Positions 31,776 through 40,484 of a stretch of 46,161 nucleotides of DNA are shown one piece after another. The notes beneath the pieces are model-generated. The model did not search any database and had not been told where the DNA came from. It saw only the letters and a list, made by a program, of their open reading frames with translations. Made by a program: the position numbers and the translations under genes. This DNA comes from Flavobacteriales bacterium (GTDB lineage: Bacteria; Bacteroidota; Bacteroidia; Flavobacteriales_D; Sanyastnellaceae), in NCBI GenBank assembly GCA_947448135.1, contig CANFLZ010000016.1:1-46161 (forward strand). The letters are read 5' to 3'. Within the stretch, counting starts at the first letter, position 1. Every line of letters starts with the position of its first letter.

Positions 31776-33812
31776 TCACATCGACTTCACAAAGAATTCT
31801 GTTCTTCTGTTTTTGGCACGTCCTTCTTCGGTGTCGTTGGGTGCGATAGGCTGCGTTTCTCCATAACCACGCGCAGTGATGCGGGTGCCATCGACTCCTG
31901 ATTTGACCAAAAAGTTCATTACCTCAAATGCTCGTTCCATCGACAATGCCAAGTTGTCCTCATCTCGACCCGAAGCATCCGTGTGTCCGCGAATTTCTAT
32001 GATCATATTGGGATGCTCATTCATGAATGCAGCAAACTCTTTTAATATGAGCAGCGAACTTTCTTTCAATTCGGCTTTGTTGGTTCCGTAAACAATATCG
32101 GGAATTGGGAAGGGCTGGTCACTCGCCAAGGTCTCTGTCTTCATGTCCAATTTCACCACGACTGGTGGCACTGTGTCTTCTTTGTGTGAAATGACGCGTG
32201 TATTGAAAGCTACATCATCGCCCTTGACACTCAATGTCACATCCTGTCCCGTACCAACTTTCATGATGGTGGCGTAACTGCCATCATCATCGTTGACCTT
32301 CACTTTTTCCGTTTCACCGCTTTCTGAATATTTGATTTCAACAGAAGCATTGGCCGCGGGTTCACCATCTTTGTTCTGAACATTACCTTTCACGACCATC
32401 ACCTTTTCTGGCTTGGCGGGTGGGGGCATTTGAAAAGAATACACATCCCAAGTTCTCTCGCCTCTGAATTTTTTTGCGCCGAAATATCCCAATTCACCGT
32501 CACTACTCACCACAACTCCGATTTGATCATTCTCGTCGTTGATGGGATAGCCTATATTTTTAATTTCAGTAAACGTTAGGTCGTCATTCATTTTGGTGTA
32601 ATAAATGTCCAAACCGCCAACTCCTAATTGTCCATCACTGGAGAAGTAAAGTGTCTTGCTATCACTGTGAAAATAGGGCCCTTTTTCTTGCCCTTTGGTA
32701 TTCACGTTTCCTTTGAGTGGTTGGGCTACTCCCCAGGTTCCATCTGGCTGTCTGAGGCTGTAGAACAAGTCGTGTGACGGATTGCCACTTCCATCTTTAA
32801 TGGTTCCTTCTCTAATTGTGGCAAATACCAACATTTGGCCATCTCCACTCAATGTAGGTTGGCCTTCCCATCCGTTGTCGGTATTGATGTTTGGGCCCAA
32901 ATCAATGAGCTCTTCCCAAACATATATTTTGTTGCCCTTATCATCTATTTTTTTGGTGTATCGGGTGCTATACAAATCGAAATTTCCAGGGTTTTTGGGT
33001 TTCGGATTTTTCTTGGCGACAATCATTTCTTTGTTGTCCAATGAAATGGTGATCCCGCCATAATTGGAACCGACATTAAATGGCTTTGGAAGGGGCTCTC
33101 CATTATCAAAGTATTGATTGATGTTGGGGCGTTTGGACCAAGTCAATTCCTCAATCATTTTAGGCTCGACATCTCCTTTGGCTTGGCGCATAAACTGTCG
33201 GGTGTAAAACATAATCTCACCATCAGGGGAGAGCAGGGGCAAATATTCTTCTTTGTCTGAACAAACACCTTCTACTTTCATAGGCTCAAAAGGAGTTTTG
33301 TTTTGATAAATTTCGCGATACGCTTTGACATGCGGCAAGGCTTCTTCAACCTCCTTGTATTTTTTTTCGTACTGCTTGCCCACTTTGGTCGGATCATCGG
33401 AGGGGAACCGCAAGAATTTTTCGAAGTAGAGCAGTGCATCATCAAACTCACGATCGGCATAGGCCATGGCGCCGAGATAGTAGAATGGCTCCGGATCATA
33501 AGTCTCGCATTTCGCGACCAAATTTTTAAGTGTTTCTTTGGCGTTATTGAAATCTAAATCGCTGTTCTTGGCTCTTAAAAATTCCATTTCTCCCAGCGCA
33601 TGCAAGCAGGGCAAACATTCTGGATCCATCTCGATTGATTTCTCAACCGCTTCTCTTTTTTCTGCAGAACTTCGATCTTTATCCTTGGCTTTTTCAAGCA
33701 TTTTCAATACTTTGGGTGAAGGGATGTGGTCACATCCTTCTTCTTGTGCATTGGCTTGAAAAACAAACAATGGCCATGCAATGAGCAAAGCCCCGATCAA
33801 CTTCTCGCGCAT
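31776..33812 (-). CDS. PorE-like OmpA-family envelope protein (TPR, PD40, CNA-like, OmpA)
   Basis: A 678-residue exported protein with the domain order of PorE, the T9SS component that anchors the machinery to peptidoglycan: signal peptide (MREKLIGALLIAWPL, ending NAQ), TPR-like helices (about 35-150), a PD40/WD40-like propeller (about 190-450, with DLYSTR, HDLFYS and YFSSDG-type blades), a carboxypeptidase-regulatory beta-sandwich (VVKGNVQNKDGEPAANASV, about 475-493) and a C-terminal OmpA domain (MIIEIRGHTDASGRDEDNLALS-type motif, NRRTEFFV end). The start is at 33812 because that ATG begins the signal peptide; the longer reading runs into the upstream gene. It follows the stop of the 1612-residue gene by 1 nt, so they form one operon. 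It may be PorE itself or a paralogue. Confidence 0.83.
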   Translation of the reverse strand: MREKLIGALLIAWPLFVFQANAQEEGCDHIPSPKVLKMLEKAKDKDRSSAEKREAVEKSIEMDPECLPCLHALGEMEFLRAKNSDLDFNNAKETLKNLVAKCETYDPEPFYYLGAMAYADREFDDALLYFEKFLRFPSDDPTKVGKQYEKKYKEVEEALPHVKAYREIYQNKTPFEPMKVEGVCSDKEEYLPLLSPDGEIMFYTRQFMRQAKGDVEPKMIEELTWSKRPNINQYFDNGEPLPKPFNVGSNYGGITISLDNKEMIVAKKNPKPKNPGNFDLYSTRYTKKIDDKGNKIYVWEELIDLGPNINTDNGWEGQPTLSGDGQMLVFATIREGTIKDGSGNPSHDLFYSLRQPDGTWGVAQPLKGNVNTKGQEKGPYFHSDSKTLYFSSDGQLGVGGLDIYYTKMNDDLTFTEIKNIGYPINDENDQIGVVVSSDGELGYFGAKKFRGERTWDVYSFQMPPPAKPEKVMVVKGNVQNKDGEPAANASVEIKYSESGETEKVKVNDDDGSYATIMKVGTGQDVTLSVKGDDVAFNTRVISHKEDTVPPVVVKLDMKTETLASDQPFPIPDIVYGTNKAELKESSLLILKEFAAFMNEHPNMIIEIRGHTDASGRDEDNLALSMERAFEVMNFLVKSGVDGTRITARGYGETQPIAPNDTEEGRAKNRRTEFFVKSM

Positions 33813-33813
33813 T

Positions 33814-36800
33814 TTATTTTTCCAATGGTTTGCAATATTGTCCCAAATGAACTTTTCCATTCTGGAAATAGAAAGGATAATTGTCACCCAAAATATCTTC
33901 CATTCCTTGGATCGGATTAGGACTATCTTTCACAAATTTCCACTTGAAGTTCTTTGTTTTGTTGTTGCCATCAATGGCAACTCCGCTTCCATTCGAAATC
34001 AAGGTTAATCGTTTGATGATGTCTCGGTTGTCTGGACTGTTGCAAATTCCTTGAGCTTCATCACAGCAGCTGTAAGTACCATACAAATCACTCAAATCAA
34101 ACTCGTAAATTTTTCCAGGTTCCTCAGTGATGGGTTCTTTCGGTGTTGCTTTGGCTGGAGTCTCCTTGGGTTCCATATTCAACTCAGGCTTTCTGATTTT
34201 GGTTGAGGCAGTATCCTTCGGATTCATGTTCAATTCAGGTTTGCGAATCTCTTTCCCATTCTCATTCTCATTCGGTTTCTCACTCTGTTTCTCACTCTGT
34301 TTCTCTCTCTCTCTTACATTCTCATTCCCATTCTGTTTCTCAATCTGTTTCTGTTTCTCGCCCTCTTTCAAAGGGGTAAATGTCTTGCTCTCTGCCTCTG
34401 ACAATCCAATTTTCTTTCCTTTGAAATAGGCGGTGACAAATGCATCTTCATATCCTTGGGCTTTGACTTTTGCCAATTGAGCCTGCGCTTCCGAACGCTT
34501 CATATATTGTCCTGTAGAGTAGCGATATAGATTCTTGCTTTGGACATATTCTACATTCAAGTTGGGCAGATTGATTTCTCCTTCTAATGCAGGTCGACCA
34601 AATACGCCGACTTGAATGGTGAAGTATCCATTTTCATCCTCTTCGATTTTGTTGGCCTTCAATGGTTGATCGCTGGTGGCTTTTGGCTCTTCTTTCTTGG
34701 CAATTGGAGCTTTGGGTTCTTCCTGCTTGGCCTTTTCCGCGGCATCAACACTGATACGTTTTCCATCTTTGTAAACGACAACAAATGCATCTGGGTAGCC
34801 CATTTTGCGAATCTCATTTCGGGCATTCATGGCATCTTTTTTATCGGGGAACAAACCTGCCATGTAACGGGTGAAGCCGTTGTTCAATTTTTGTCCCATC
34901 ACTGGAGCAAAGTCATTGAAGGTGTTTTGCGGAATTGGCTTTTTGAATGCACCGACTTGAACAGAGTATACGATTCCTTCTGGCATCGGCTCATCAACTG
35001 GAATTGGATTCTGAGCGCCATAAGCAGATTTGTTGATGCGAACAAAGAATGGCTTGTCAACTCGCTCTGGCTTGGTGCGCATCAAATCCATTGCATCTTC
35101 TTTGGAATAGGAAGCGTTTTGAAGAACAATTCCATTCTTCTTCATTTTTTCCTCGTCGAATTTCATTCCGCTCAACTGAGCAGCCAAGTCGGCATCGATT
35201 TTTTCTGTCTCTATACGTTGAGTATCTGTCTCTTCAGGTTGTTTCTCTATCCGCGCGTTTTCGGCTGTTGCTGATCCAGCTTCCACCTTGTGGGTGCTGA
35301 ATTTGGCTCGGATGGCATTGGCATCGCTGGCCAGCAAAAATGCTTCGTCTTGGGTATTGTACAATTCAAAGATGGGCAATGCATCGATGGCTTTATTCAT
35401 ATGACGATACATGCTGGCTACCATCATATCCTTGGCAAACGCGGAGCGAATCAACTGATCTTTTTGAAGAGGATCAGTGATGGTCTCTGCTTTTTTGCGT
35501 TCATTCACTGCTAGGTTGCTAATGGAATCAGCGTCATGTCTAATTTGCTGAATGAATTGATTGAGTATCGTCTCCGATTTAATTTTGGATTCGTTGTCGT
35601 AATATTTCTTCAGAGCAACGGTTTTCTCAGCTTCAACCTCTTTCATAGCAATGGAGCGATACACCTCTTTATTGTCTACTTCCAGTGCAGCTCTGCGATT
35701 GGTGAGCGATGTATATTTTTGTTGAAGGATCTTCTCGTCATTTGGGTTGGAAGCTTTATCAATTGAATTTTGAATTTCAAAAATCGCTTTGTTCAAACTA
35801 TCCATTTTAGCGCGCTCTTTGAAAGATCCGCTGATATCTGGATATTTTTTCATCAAATCATACACCTTATGCTCTTCCATAGCATAGTTGGCGTCAAATT
35901 CTTTGAAGCTGGCGCTGTCAATGACTTCTTTGATCACCTTCGCAGATTTCAATGCCAAGGAGACATCTTCGTTGTCGCTAGGTTGTGGTGCAAAGGGTCC
36001 TTTTTTGTCTGCGCTTGGATTGGTTTTATTTCCTGAAGTTGTCGCCTCTGGGATAGATTTATTTTCGCCTTTGGGTGCAACATCTGGCTGTTTTTCAGTG
36101 GTAGGAGTTGCGCTTTTTTGTTGACCACCATTTTCAGTCGTAGCATTGTTTTGAGCGACATCGGTATTGGTTGGTGCAACTGCAGGACCTTTGATGTCAG
36201 GCGCATTGCCTGGCTGAGGAACCTCTTCTAAATTGTAATTTCGGGTCCACGAAACCTTGGCTTGGTCAAACAAAAGAGTATGCTTGTATGGCTCGTTGGA
36301 CTTGGCTTCTAGGGTTTTCATTTGACCTTGTAACTGCGCAATTTCATCTTTGGAAAGGGGAGTCTTTTCTGCTTCACTCAATCCCAAATCTTCTTGATTG
36401 GTCATCTGATTGTATACCTTGTTGGCCATTTGAGCTCCAACTGCCTCATCGTAGGTCTTCTTCACTTTGGGGTCGGCCAAAATGACTTCTGATCTTTTGT
36501 TCTTGGCAGCAGCTTGGGTTTGTGCTAAAGATGGTGCGTTGTTTTTCTTGTCTTCAATGACTTTAGCTTCTAAGACATTGAGCTCATGTACCAAGTCATT
36601 GTAAGATTTTTGATTGGCTTCATGTGATTTGGCAGCGGCCTTGGCTTTTTGAGGCATGGCATTCGCTGGCTTTTTGGGACGGGCTTGCTCTGCCAACAAT
36701 CGTTTTCTTTCCTCTGTTAACACCTCTACGGCTCCATCAACGTTGTTGTCTTTTAAGTAGCTCTGCAATTTCGTTGCTCGGCTAAGCAATTCTTTGGAGG

Positions 36801-38652
36801 TGGGTTCCAATGAACTTTGATACTCCGCAAGCTGATTGCCTAAATTCAAAGCACCTTGGGCTTTTAAACGATGCGCTTCTGCGGCTTCTCTCAATTCAGT
36901 GGATTGATTCAATATCTCGCGATCTTGATCCGTAAAGATGTACGGACTTCCTTTAGCCTTTGCTGATTCTACTTTGGCAGAAATTATTTTGGCCAATGAA
37001 TCCGACAGAATCATCTTGGCATTAGCTTGATTCATTTGTTGCTTGGCCAATTGAAATGCGGCTTGCTTTTGTTGTTGAACAACGGGTATCGCAGCGCTTG
37101 CCGCTTTTGCTTCGGCTTTCATTTCAGCCAATATATCATCGGCGGTTTTTCCTCTAGCAAAACCAGCTAGTGCAGGGGCGTTGGTCATACTGCGTTCCAA
37201 TGAAGCCATCTCTGCGGCTTCTTTGCTAACGCTCAAATTGGATTTTGAACGAAGCAATGCGGCCAACGAATTTTCCATGCCTGAATCCAAATTGGTATCC
37301 GCTCCATTGCGAACCACCAATTGTCCTGAGCCATCTTCCTTCTTCACGGCGTTCACCGTTTGAGGGAAATAAACAGCTCCTGATCTACCGGGTTGAACGT
37401 CAAATTCTGAAACCAATTTTTCTTCACTATCGGGCAATGAAACCGTATAGCTATATCTTCCTGGTTTAGGGAAATAAACATCAAACGCTCCTGACTTAAC
37501 TTCTGCAGTAACCTCACTAACAATCTCTCCTGTTTCCAAATCCTTAACAACAATCTGAGCAACGTTGTTCTCCGGATGTTCCATGTTGGTGAAGTGACCT
37601 TTGGCGTAAATGATTTCCAAAGGCGATCCCTGAAAGGATGTCTGATAAAGCGTGTAATGACTGATGTCGCTCGTTCTGGCAGTTGCAAATATGGCGGTTT
37701 GATTCGCAGCATCTGCAATGAACATCAAGTCATCATCGGGGGTGTTGAAACTAAATCCCAAATTAACGGGCTTCTTCCAACGTTTGCTCAGCGAGTCCAA
37801 ATCAGAGCGGAAAATATCATAGCCTCCCATGCTGTTGTGACCCTTAGAAGCAAAATACAAATGTTTTCCATCAGGATGGATAAATGGATAATCCTCGTCA
37901 TACGGGGTGTTGATTTTTCCAGCGACAAGAACGGGCTTGCCGTAACTGCCATCAGGTTTCAACTCGGCTTGAAAGATGTCCAATCCTGAAGTGTCAGAAA
38001 GCAAACTGAAATAAACCAATTTGGGTGTACCGTTGAGGTGTATCAAATGCGGCTCTGTAGATTTTCTGTCCTTGCTTCCCAAAAATTCTGTGGGAGTGGT
38101 GATGATTTTTCCTCCTACTGCTTCTAGTGGCAAGTAGCGAAAAAAGTTGATTCGTTCCGCTTCAATTTTCTTCTTGACGACCATCTCCTTGGGATTGGCC
38201 AAAAGCTTGGAGCCATAAATACACATTTGAATTTGACGCAGGGCATTGTATTTCCCCAATAGATCCGGTTCTGCGGTGTCTAAAAAAGTTTCGTACGCAT
38301 TGCAGGCTTCTGAAAACTGATAACTCAAATGCAATGCACGTCCTAGGTAATAATAAACTTCTGGTGATGAGTACCCCCCCTTGATACTTTGTTTCAAATA
38401 TTTGACCGAATTCGCTTTGTCCGCATCGCAATACATGGCGCATACCCCAAAGTGAAATGTATAATCTACATTCGATGGTGACAGCGAAATGAGCTGCGAA
38501 TACAATGGATAGGCATCCGACAATTGCTGAGCATTGTAAAAACTCAATGCTTCTTTGGCCAGCTTGGTTTCATCTTTTTTTGTCTGTGCGCTGAGGGGAA
38601 TCAGTGCGCCTAACAAAAAGAAGCCAAGCAATATTGTTTTTATTGTTTTCAC
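33814..38652 (-). CDS. Very large exported TPR/PD40/SPOR protein of unknown function
   Basis: A 1612-residue exported protein. Signal peptide 1-22 (ends PLSAQ), then TPR-like helices (about 25-150), PD40-like blades (about 215-345; DIFQAELKPDGSYG, YDIFRSDLDSLSKRW), a beta-sandwich segment (about 355-430), and roughly 800 residues of Ala/Lys/Gln-rich helical, coiled-coil-like sequence broken by a disordered Thr/Pro/Asn-rich stretch (about 810-905). Two SPOR-type domains follow (YSVQVGAFKKPIPQNTF, about 1225-1305; YFTIQVGVFGRP, about 1340-1417), a low-complexity Glu/Asn/Lys linker (about 1425-1505) and a Cys-containing C-terminal domain (LYGTYSCCDEAQGICNS). The start is GTG. The porE-like gene is 1 nt downstream. 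Peptidoglycan-binding SPOR plus PorE suggests an envelope scaffold; inference. Confidence 0.8.
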   Translation of the reverse strand: MKTIKTILLGFFLLGALIPLSAQTKKDETKLAKEALSFYNAQQLSDAYPLYSQLISLSPSNVDYTFHFGVCAMYCDADKANSVKYLKQSIKGGYSSPEVYYYLGRALHLSYQFSEACNAYETFLDTAEPDLLGKYNALRQIQMCIYGSKLLANPKEMVVKKKIEAERINFFRYLPLEAVGGKIITTPTEFLGSKDRKSTEPHLIHLNGTPKLVYFSLLSDTSGLDIFQAELKPDGSYGKPVLVAGKINTPYDEDYPFIHPDGKHLYFASKGHNSMGGYDIFRSDLDSLSKRWKKPVNLGFSFNTPDDDLMFIADAANQTAIFATARTSDISHYTLYQTSFQGSPLEIIYAKGHFTNMEHPENNVAQIVVKDLETGEIVSEVTAEVKSGAFDVYFPKPGRYSYTVSLPDSEEKLVSEFDVQPGRSGAVYFPQTVNAVKKEDGSGQLVVRNGADTNLDSGMENSLAALLRSKSNLSVSKEAAEMASLERSMTNAPALAGFARGKTADDILAEMKAEAKAASAAIPVVQQQKQAAFQLAKQQMNQANAKMILSDSLAKIISAKVESAKAKGSPYIFTDQDREILNQSTELREAAEAHRLKAQGALNLGNQLAEYQSSLEPTSKELLSRATKLQSYLKDNNVDGAVEVLTEERKRLLAEQARPKKPANAMPQKAKAAAKSHEANQKSYNDLVHELNVLEAKVIEDKKNNAPSLAQTQAAAKNKRSEVILADPKVKKTYDEAVGAQMANKVYNQMTNQEDLGLSEAEKTPLSKDEIAQLQGQMKTLEAKSNEPYKHTLLFDQAKVSWTRNYNLEEVPQPGNAPDIKGPAVAPTNTDVAQNNATTENGGQQKSATPTTEKQPDVAPKGENKSIPEATTSGNKTNPSADKKGPFAPQPSDNEDVSLALKSAKVIKEVIDSASFKEFDANYAMEEHKVYDLMKKYPDISGSFKERAKMDSLNKAIFEIQNSIDKASNPNDEKILQQKYTSLTNRRAALEVDNKEVYRSIAMKEVEAEKTVALKKYYDNESKIKSETILNQFIQQIRHDADSISNLAVNERKKAETITDPLQKDQLIRSAFAKDMMVASMYRHMNKAIDALPIFELYNTQDEAFLLASDANAIRAKFSTHKVEAGSATAENARIEKQPEETDTQRIETEKIDADLAAQLSGMKFDEEKMKKNGIVLQNASYSKEDAMDLMRTKPERVDKPFFVRINKSAYGAQNPIPVDEPMPEGIVYSVQVGAFKKPIPQNTFNDFAPVMGQKLNNGFTRYMAGLFPDKKDAMNARNEIRKMGYPDAFVVVYKDGKRISVDAAEKAKQEEPKAPIAKKEEPKATSDQPLKANKIEEDENGYFTIQVGVFGRPALEGEINLPNLNVEYVQSKNLYRYSTGQYMKRSEAQAQLAKVKAQGYEDAFVTAYFKGKKIGLSEAESKTFTPLKEGEKQKQIEKQNGNENVREREKQSEKQSEKPNENENGKEIRKPELNMNPKDTASTKIRKPELNMEPKETPAKATPKEPITEEPGKIYEFDLSDLYGTYSCCDEAQGICNSPDNRDIIKRLTLISNGSGVAIDGNNKTKNFKWKFVKDSPNPIQGMEDILGDNYPFYFQNGKVHLGQYCKPLEK
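34160..34375 (-). repeat. Low-complexity purine tract and 17-codon duplication inside the giant gene
   Basis: On the coding strand about 34258-34370 is almost all A/G, built from GAGAAACAGA-like and GAATGAGAATG-like units that encode Glu/Asn/Lys/Gln runs. Just downstream IRKPELNM occurs twice, 51 bp (17 codons) apart. Both look like products of strand slippage. Confidence 0.8.
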
Positions 38653-38714: not shown

Positions 38715-38722
38715 TACATTTG
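38715..38722 (+). promoter_or_regulatory. -7 box (TACATTTG) 4 nt before the DUF423-endonuclease ATG
   Basis: TACATTTG fits TAnnTTTG exactly and leaves 4 nt (CGGC) to the ATG at 38727, predicting a leaderless or nearly leaderless transcript for the DUF423 part of the gene. Confidence 0.6.
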
Positions 38723-38726
38723 CGGC

Positions 38727-40484
38727 ATGGTGAAAAGAGTTATTCCATTTGTTTTTATGGCCTCAGCCATTGCATTGGGAGCAATGGGAGCGCATTATTT
38801 GAAGTCTGTTTTGTCGGAGAAAATGATGACAGCGTTTCAAACAGGTGTTTTGTATCAAATGGTACACGGTCTTGGACTGCTCGCTCTGTGGGGTTTAAAG
38901 GATAAATGGACCAACGAAAAGTCTTTTAAAACTACTGTTCTTTTGTTGTCTTGGGGAACAATTTTATTTTCAGGTTCAATTTATATGTTGGCTTTGAATG
39001 AATGGGGAAATTGGGGAATGGAGAAAATATTTGGCCCCATAACGCCGATTGGAGGAGTTTGTATGATTGCAGGTTGGGTTTATGCTGGCAATCATTGGAC
39101 GAAAAAGTCTAAAATGAGTTTGGTGGCCTTATTGATTTTGTCTTCAAATTTTTCTTGGGGACAATTGACGGTTTCAAATATAACCACATACAAAGCGCAT
39201 CTTTCTTGGCCTGCTGCGCCTGGAGCAAATGGCTATTTGATTCTTCGATCTCAGGACACCATAACTTCAATCCCACAAGAAGCCATGTCTTATCAAGTGG
39301 GAGATTACATCGGCAATGCACAAGTGGCTTATGTGGGTAATTTGTTGGCATTTGATCAACTGACCTTGCGCGCATCTTCGCATTATTTTTTCCAATTGTA
39401 CAGTTGGATCGGGGGCATTTTAGGAAATACCTATTTCCCAGATGGCCCACAATTGGATTTCACAACGCCTTTCAATATGATGGGAACCTATTACGATGGG
39501 ATTGATTCAACGGCACTCACTTTCGTGGATGACCTCAAGGCCCGTATTCGCAGTCCATACAATAAGATCAGTTACAATAGTTATGACGAAACAATGATCA
39601 ATGATTATGCACATGTTGACACAACAGGCGGACAGCAAATTGTCAATTGTGTTTACTCTCAATTTCATTATTTGTTCACGCCTCCATTTGGTTGGCTGCC
39701 TATCAGTCGCGAGCATACTTATTGCCACAGTTGGATGCCAAGCTATTCATCAACAAGCACGGATGAATATGCAGACCAACATCATTTATTTCCTGTTCAA
39801 CAAAACAATGCCAATGGCGTAAGAAGCAATCATCCTTTGGGTGAAGTTGTGACGCCAGTATCGACTTTTGGATTGGCCAATATGGGAAATAATGATCAAG
39901 GATATTTGGTGTATGAACCTCGTGAAGTGCACAAAGGTGACGCTGCCAGAGCGTTGTTGTATATGTCTCTGCGATATGATGATGTCAATGGATTGGATTG
40001 GTCTTTTGATTACTTGAACAATGTTACTTTACCAGGATTGAGCGAGGGAAGTCAATCATTGGAAACCCTTTTGACTTGGCACTTCCAGGATTTGCCGGAT
40101 GCTTATGAGCGTGGAAGAAACGACTACATTCAGAGCAATCAACTCAATAGAAATCCTTTTGTTGATCATCCTTTTTGGGTCAATCGAATCAATTTCGCGG
40201 ATATGTCTTACATCGCTATTCCCAATGATATTCATGAAAATGAAACATCATTCAATTTGCATGTTTTAGACAATGGAGGAATTCCAGTTGTTGTTAAGAA
40301 CAACAATGCATTAACTGATTTTCGTGTGTTGGATCAAGCGGGCAGAGTGGTGGTTCAGTTGAAAATTTCCGCTGGAGTTTTGCGATTCCAAGACTTGAAT
40401 TTGTCCGATGGCTTGTACTTTGTACAATGCTCTGATTCCAAAGGAAGCAAGGCTATTTCAGTGGTTCAACATCACCAAAATTGA
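38727..40484 (+). CDS. DUF423 membrane protein fused in frame to T9SS-secreted endonuclease I
   Basis: A 585-residue open frame of two normally separate proteins. Residues 1 to about 125 are a complete DUF423 (YgdD-like) inner-membrane protein with four hydrophobic helices (MASAIALGAMGAHYLK, YQMVHGLGLLALWG, GTILFSGSIYMLAL, TPIGGVCMIAGW). At Met130 (ATG at 39114) a typical signal peptide begins: KKSK-MSLVALLILSSNFSWGQ. A fibronectin III-like domain follows (about 147-235), then an endonuclease I (PF04231-type) domain (about 250-475) with SREHTYCHSW, DQHHLFPV, RSNHPLGEV and YEPREVHKGDAARALLYM, and a T9SS-type C-terminal domain (about 505-585). No stop separates the halves. It may be a true fusion, or the nuclease may also start internally. 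It overlaps meaB by 32 nt at the 3' end. Confidence 0.88.
   Translation: MVKRVIPFVFMASAIALGAMGAHYLKSVLSEKMMTAFQTGVLYQMVHGLGLLALWGLKDKWTNEKSFKTTVLLLSWGTILFSGSIYMLALNEWGNWGMEKIFGPITPIGGVCMIAGWVYAGNHWTKKSKMSLVALLILSSNFSWGQLTVSNITTYKAHLSWPAAPGANGYLILRSQDTITSIPQEAMSYQVGDYIGNAQVAYVGNLLAFDQLTLRASSHYFFQLYSWIGGILGNTYFPDGPQLDFTTPFNMMGTYYDGIDSTALTFVDDLKARIRSPYNKISYNSYDETMINDYAHVDTTGGQQIVNCVYSQFHYLFTPPFGWLPISREHTYCHSWMPSYSSTSTDEYADQHHLFPVQQNNANGVRSNHPLGEVVTPVSTFGLANMGNNDQGYLVYEPREVHKGDAARALLYMSLRYDDVNGLDWSFDYLNNVTLPGLSEGSQSLETLLTWHFQDLPDAYERGRNDYIQSNQLNRNPFVDHPFWVNRINFADMSYIAIPNDIHENETSFNLHVLDNGGIPVVVKNNNALTDFRVLDQAGRVVVQLKISAGVLRFQDLNLSDGLYFVQCSDSKGSKAISVVQHHQN

Follow-up and report, generated by a model that had tools for sequence, protein, structure and literature searches.

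An in-frame fusion of a DUF423 membrane protein gene and a secreted-type endonuclease I gene in two species of a flavobacterial genus

The window, i.e., the whole 46,161-nucleotide stretch of Flavobacteriales DNA that was analyzed, contains an ORF of 585 codons that has no internal stop and in which a DUF423 domain is followed, in order, by a linker, a signal-peptide-like segment, an FN3-like domain, an Endonuclease I domain and a sorting domain. The features of the locus are as follows.

38715 to 38722, forward strand: TACATTTG, a match to the Bacteroidetes -7 element TAnnTTTG, 4 nt before the DUF423 ATG
38727 to 40484, forward strand: fused ORF with an ATG start, 585 aa, 65.7 kDa
38775 to 39056, forward strand: DUF423 domain (Pfam match, residues 17-110)
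39081 to 39113, forward strand: linker YAGNHWTKKSK (residues 119-129), with three K/R and no D/E
39114 to 39161, forward strand: signal-peptide-like segment (residues 130-145), a hydropathy peak
Within the seam, forward strand: candidate signal peptidase I site G145-Q146, a small-residue/Q boundary as in the separate orthologues
39159 to 39473, forward strand: FN3 fold (residues about 145-249), supported by the structural model and, through VIA-align, by solved FN3 domains
39702 to 40172, forward strand: Endonuclease_1 Pfam match (residues 326-482), with REH (328-330) and QQNNAN
40290 to 40454, forward strand: borderline T9SS type A sorting domain (residues 522-576)

Both main domains were found well above their Pfam cut-offs of 25 bits, with scores of 84.9 bits for DUF423 (PF04241) and 86.7 bits for Endonuclease_1 (PF04231; match from position 75 to 234 of the 235-position profile). 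Within the genus, another genome (G003) encodes a fused protein that is 63% identical to that of the window's own genome (G000) over residues 1-569 and that also carries both domains above cut-off. The in-frame fusion claimed in a preliminary description of this DNA is thus borne out. An AlphaFold model of the fused protein, based on a 40-row alignment (mean pLDDT 82, pTM 0.64), was found to consist of four DUF423 helices (residues 2-25, 31-56, 64-94 and 105-123; block pLDDT 72-84 over residues 11-120), a stretch of low confidence at residues 128-141, and separately folded FN3 and nuclease modules. Hydropathy peaks agreed with four transmembrane helices in DUF423, and the same number of helices had been read from the sequence in the preliminary description. 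The FN3-like domain named there was likewise recovered, as residues of about 145-249 of the model matched solved FN3 domains (best Z 11.3, rmsd 2.2, 88 residues).

Comparison of the model with solved structures matched residues 278-483 to Vvn (1oup_B; Z 15.6, rmsd 2.9, 173 residues aligned), and the top of the list was occupied by six Vibrio endonuclease I entries (Z 14.9-15.6, rmsd 2.8-3.1, 168-174 residues). Judged by the model, the nuclease part has the Vvn-type Endonuclease I fold, and its activity is presumed. Residues R328, E329, H330 and N363, each of which is at least 90% conserved in the 40 rows of the alignment (A1), are candidate counterparts of the catalytic His/Glu and metal-binding Asn of Vvn, and the REH/QQNNAN motif was present in all six sequences of the genus. 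A sequence search of solved structures gave no match for the nuclease part and chance-level matches only for DUF423; the whole-model fold comparison gave no DUF423 match among the matches listed, although one domain can fill such a list. The sorting domain named in the preliminary description was recovered by one family model and missed by another, scoring 24.3 bits with TIGR04183 (cut-off 23) and 14.1 bits with Pfam Por_Secre_tail (cut-off 27). TIGR04183 reached 21.8 bits in G003, which is under the cut-off, and 26.3-29.6 bits in four separate nuclease orthologues from the same genus. Por_Secre_tail was also under its cut-off in those four, and no G003 row occurred among the matches listed.

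Seven genomes of the genus, including that of the window, were sampled, and six of them showed the locus. In all six, the order of genes relative to the window was PD40/SPOR protein (reverse strand), DUF423 (forward), nuclease (forward) and MeaB (reverse). In the window, the 1612-aa PD40+SPOR protein adjoins a 703-aa PD40+OmpA protein (31776-38652, reverse strand); both are of envelope type and their frames overlap. At the other end of the locus, the last 32 bases of the nuclease ORF (40453-40484) are shared with the convergent MeaB gene. DUF423 and the nuclease are fused in G000 and G003 and are encoded by two genes in the remaining four species, in which the distance from the DUF423 stop to the next ATG is 15 (G001), 16 (G002), 21 (G004) or 11 nt (G005). 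The two genes lie in one frame with a single TAA between them in G001 and G004, and in different frames in G005 and G002. Each of the separate nuclease orthologues has its own start codon and an N-terminal, signal-peptide-like stretch and is 470-472 aa long. The fused halves can therefore be regarded as formerly separate genes, as had been proposed. The seventh genome (G006) gave no match to either the DUF423 or the nuclease domain. Since contigs C86 and C165 of G006 each start within one of the genes flanking the fusion locus, an assembly gap is the probable reason why the locus is missing, and the finding is no demonstration of a natural loss.

Outside the genus, G025 was found to have a DUF423 gene divergent to a PD40/SPOR-like gene and then a peroxiredoxin-like gene (named by eye), which suggests that the nuclease may have arrived beside DUF423 later. 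G035 and G012 likewise carry DUF423 and the nuclease on separate contigs.

The sequence across the junction is GNHWTKKSK-MSLVALLILSSNFSWG-Q, and Met130 is encoded at position 39114, as previously described. The signal-like segment, which is a hydropathy peak, corresponds in position to the signal peptides of the four separate orthologues, in keeping with the signal-peptide-like character attributed to the seam at the outset. Counted from the conserved GW in DUF423 up to the mature Q, the seam is 90 nt long in G000 and 87 nt in G003, compared with 123 (G001), 123 (G004), 113 (G005) and 118 nt (G002) in the unfused genomes. Being 23-36 nt shorter than in those four, the fused seam indicates that a deletion took part in the join, and the initial suggestion of a lost DUF423 stop is an oversimplification.

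A rooted tree of the flanking genes, built from MeaB and residues 1-480 of the PD40/SPOR protein and including seven genomes from other genera, grouped G000 with G003 (99.9/100) and the four unfused genomes with one another (100/100), and placed G006 outside both groups (96.5/97). The nuclease tree contained the same clade of separate genes and left the G000/G003 fork open. Since the flanking-gene tree groups G000 with G003, a single fusion event in their ancestor would most simply account for the two fused loci. Synonymous sites of this pair are near or at saturation (pS 0.68-0.81 in long segments), and dN was 0.30 in DUF423 and 0.11 in Endonuclease_1, the latter part being 86% identical. Both halves are under purifying selection in the fused pair.

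These comparisons bear on the possibility that the fusion is an assembly or sequencing error. Both fused genomes are in fact draft assemblies (103 and about 300 contigs), and that of G003 is 64% complete. However, the fusion is common to two species whose synonymous divergence approaches saturation and whose seams differ by a net length that keeps the frame, and the seam is 23-36 nt shorter than in the unfused four, not changed at a single base. Stop codons between the halves, regarded in the preliminary description as a sign of such an error, do occur in relatives, but in the four-species clade with separate genes; together with the fusion in a second species, this argues for a derived fusion. 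Sequencing error or stop-loss alone was rejected on the strength of the second fused species and the shorter seam, and we regard an artifact of any kind as very improbable.

In order to evaluate translation starts, a start-context model was trained on 158 long ORFs and 1864 internal ATGs, all taken from twenty stretches of the genome to which the window belongs, and it separated starts from internal ATGs with a five-fold AUC of 0.86. The DUF423 ATG scored 3.57. Met130, with a score of 2.80, exceeded 53% of the 158 training starts, and 1.4% of the 1864 internal ATGs did as well. Its context is therefore start-like, and Met130 may be an internal start in the window species, but the score is suggestive only because the lysine codons of the linker contribute to it. 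It would follow from one alternative reading that the nuclease of the window species is made mainly from Met130, with read-through from DUF423 as a minor product and the fused frame of little consequence for the enzyme. The nuclease starts of the separate orthologues scored 1.3 to 3.5, an interval that includes the value for Met130, and there is an A at -3, as in the contexts lacking a Shine-Dalgarno sequence at which Flavobacterium johnsoniae initiates according to PMC6847099. On the other hand, the lysine codons yield A-rich DNA by themselves, ribosomes that start at DUF423 must read on when there is no stop, and G003 has no ATG at the place of Met130. Nearby in-frame ATG, TTG, ATT and ATC codons in G003 (n = 8) scored -1.8 to -5.4, below 92-99% of the 158 training starts, yet its Endonuclease_1 part is as well conserved as stated above. 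Taken as a whole, the evidence leaves a nuclease made mainly from Met130 unlikely, at something like one chance in five.

With no start-like codon at the seam and a nuclease under purifying selection, the nuclease of G003 would most simply be made as part of one polypeptide, in which the fifth hydrophobic segment would serve as an internal signal peptide and be cut. The preliminary description had offered a cut precursor and a start at Met130 as alternatives; both fit the window species, and the start-less junction of G003 favors the precursor at least in that species.

The promoter-like sequence at the locus is the same with and without the fusion. A TACNTTTG box was observed directly 5′ of the DUF423 ATG in all six genomes that show the locus, and TAnnTTTG was absent between the DUF423 and nuclease halves in the same six. 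TAnnTTTG is the Bacteroidetes -7 promoter consensus in PMC6847099, where most predicted transcripts of F. johnsoniae are leadered. The preliminary description had held that fusion ties nuclease output to DUF423. Such a tie is not new to the fusion, for the unfused genes already adjoin behind one promoter-like box. Throughout the window, TANNTTTG-N4-ATG occurred six times (0.89 expected), and five of the six sites are listed ORF starts, i.e., 12957 (reverse), 20869 (reverse), 31753 (reverse), 38727 (forward) and 42594 (forward). Because of this excess and its location, near-leaderless promoters look common in the window's genome.

Between the two fused proteins the seam (residues 119-145) has diverged to 28% identity, with a net length difference that keeps the frame. 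In the junction, whose conservation had been proposed earlier as a check, a hydrophobic core is kept. The core is more hydrophobic in G003 than in G000; depending on window length, 0.15-0.7% of random peptides reach the value of G003 and 3-10% that of G000. A random 25-codon stretch of this composition has a probability of 0.22 of containing no stop, and an open seam is by itself weak evidence for the single precursor. The linker YAGNHWTKKSK is probably in the cytoplasm. The segments predicted to be inside (N-terminus, loop 2 and linker) carry slightly more K/R than those predicted to be outside, with 2, 3 and 3 against 2 and 1 in G000, and 1, 2 and 2 against 2 and 1 in G003; the positive-inside difference is weak, particularly in G003. 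If the four helices leave both termini on the inner side, the old signal peptide would be correctly oriented to bring the nuclease across the membrane.

The same segment could instead act as a permanent anchor, in which case the protein would remain uncut and DUF423 would tether the nuclease to the periplasmic side of the inner membrane, e.g., against incoming DNA. The retention of a hydrophobic segment in a seam of such low identity, and its greater strength in G003, are compatible with an anchor. A point on the same side is that E. coli YgdD (DUF423/UPF0382) was modeled with four transmembrane helices as a homotrimer with a topology like that of MAPEG proteins in PMC4602095. However, a small residue followed by Q is kept in the fused pair (SWG-Q and SQG-Q), just as is seen where the separate orthologues are probably cleaved, and a sorting domain at the C-terminus, borderline as it is, would be useless to a tethered enzyme. 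We thus consider an uncut, tethered nuclease improbable, and more so than a nuclease made mainly from Met130. Cleavage at about G145-Q146 is predicted because the small-residue/Q boundary is common to the separate orthologues.

The explanation that we prefer, and to which we assign a modest majority of the probability, is a deletion-made, in-frame fusion that yields one polypeptide with an internal signal peptide that is cut. The scheme, for which we infer operon transcript, topology, cleavage, export and enzyme activity alike, would begin with an ancestral two-gene operon of DUF423 and a secreted Endonuclease I. In an ancestor shared by two of the species, both genes would have been joined in frame by a deletion, and translation from the DUF423 start at 38727 would give one polypeptide. 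The four DUF423 helices would insert into the inner membrane so that both of their ends face the cytoplasm, where the lysine-bearing linker would remain, and the old signal peptide would cross the membrane as a fifth segment. Signal peptidase I would probably cut at about G145-Q146, whereupon DUF423 with a short extra tail would stay in the membrane and the freed part, consisting of FN3, Endonuclease I and sorting domains, would pass to the type IX system. Such export is possible, since SprA (TIGR04189) was over its cut-off in each of the seven genomes sampled. Met130 may, in the window species, give rise to some nuclease as well.

In order to determine how widespread the arrangement is, DUF423 was searched for in 399 genomes of the order and in 395 of the phylum, and matches were obtained in 341 and 201 of them, respectively. 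Among the DUF423 matches listed for both, only G000, G003 and G531 had frames longer than 250 aa, and DUF423 was paired with Endonuclease I nowhere else among the matches listed. The frames of G531 (356 aa) and G595 (242 aa) were rejected as candidates; the additional residues precede DUF423, are encoded by GC-rich DNA and include no nuclease. Among the DUF423-type matches listed for 80 relatives, no frame other than those of G000 and G003 exceeded 205 aa, with the exception of G001 and G004, in which reading through the single TAA gives 609 aa. A nuclease match in G012 that seemed to reach into DUF423 (query from residue 110) belongs to a longer protein, and the DUF423 gene of G012 is on another contig. 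No paper on a DUF423-nuclease fusion was found in a literature search, and text matches for DUF423 plus nuclease proved to be to DUF4238 and DUF4231.

If the preferred explanation is true, operon neighbors can become one gene even though one product stays in the membrane and the other exits the cell, and such a merger needs the seam to go on working as a signal peptide. A bolder reading, to which we give slightly less than even chances, is that of a polyprotein in the making, with separate, stop-split, fused with Met and fused without Met states in one genus and with export in G003 dependent on the internal signal peptide behind the four-helix membrane protein. These are states and not a line of descent, as the tree sets the four unfused genomes on a branch of their own. 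The genus also supplies a few naturally occurring states in which the cleavage of internal signal peptides could be tested for this phylum. The fusion by itself gives no explanation of DUF423 function; the fused partner and the neighboring genes hint at envelope work.

Like YgdD, the DUF423 part of the window protein has four predicted helices, but unlike the other DUF423 proteins among the matches listed it runs on into a secreted-type enzyme. The nuclease part resembles the separate orthologues in its Endonuclease_1 domain, its borderline C-terminal sorting domain and the N-terminal part that precedes them. It has the same predicted fold as Vvn but is only 21% identical to it, and the nuclease match takes up almost the whole of the matched Vvn chain (210 residues), which leaves no room there for FN3, membrane or sorting parts. 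Fusion of operon neighbors is a known kind of event, and it is the domain pairing that is new by the searches above. Neither FbcH nor bacterial polyproteins processed by signal peptidase yielded anything usable in literature searches, which included passages of PMC6256036. As a predicted polytopic membrane protein that continues in the same chain into a putatively exported part behind a candidate internal signal sequence, the fused ORF product has its closest precedent in FbcH of Bradyrhizobium, a fused precursor of cytochrome b and cytochrome c1 in which the periplasm-side protein follows its own internal signal sequence and is cut off by signal peptidase. The halves of FbcH are subunits of one complex and their cleavage has reportedly been demonstrated, whereas the halves joined here are unrelated and their cleavage is predicted.
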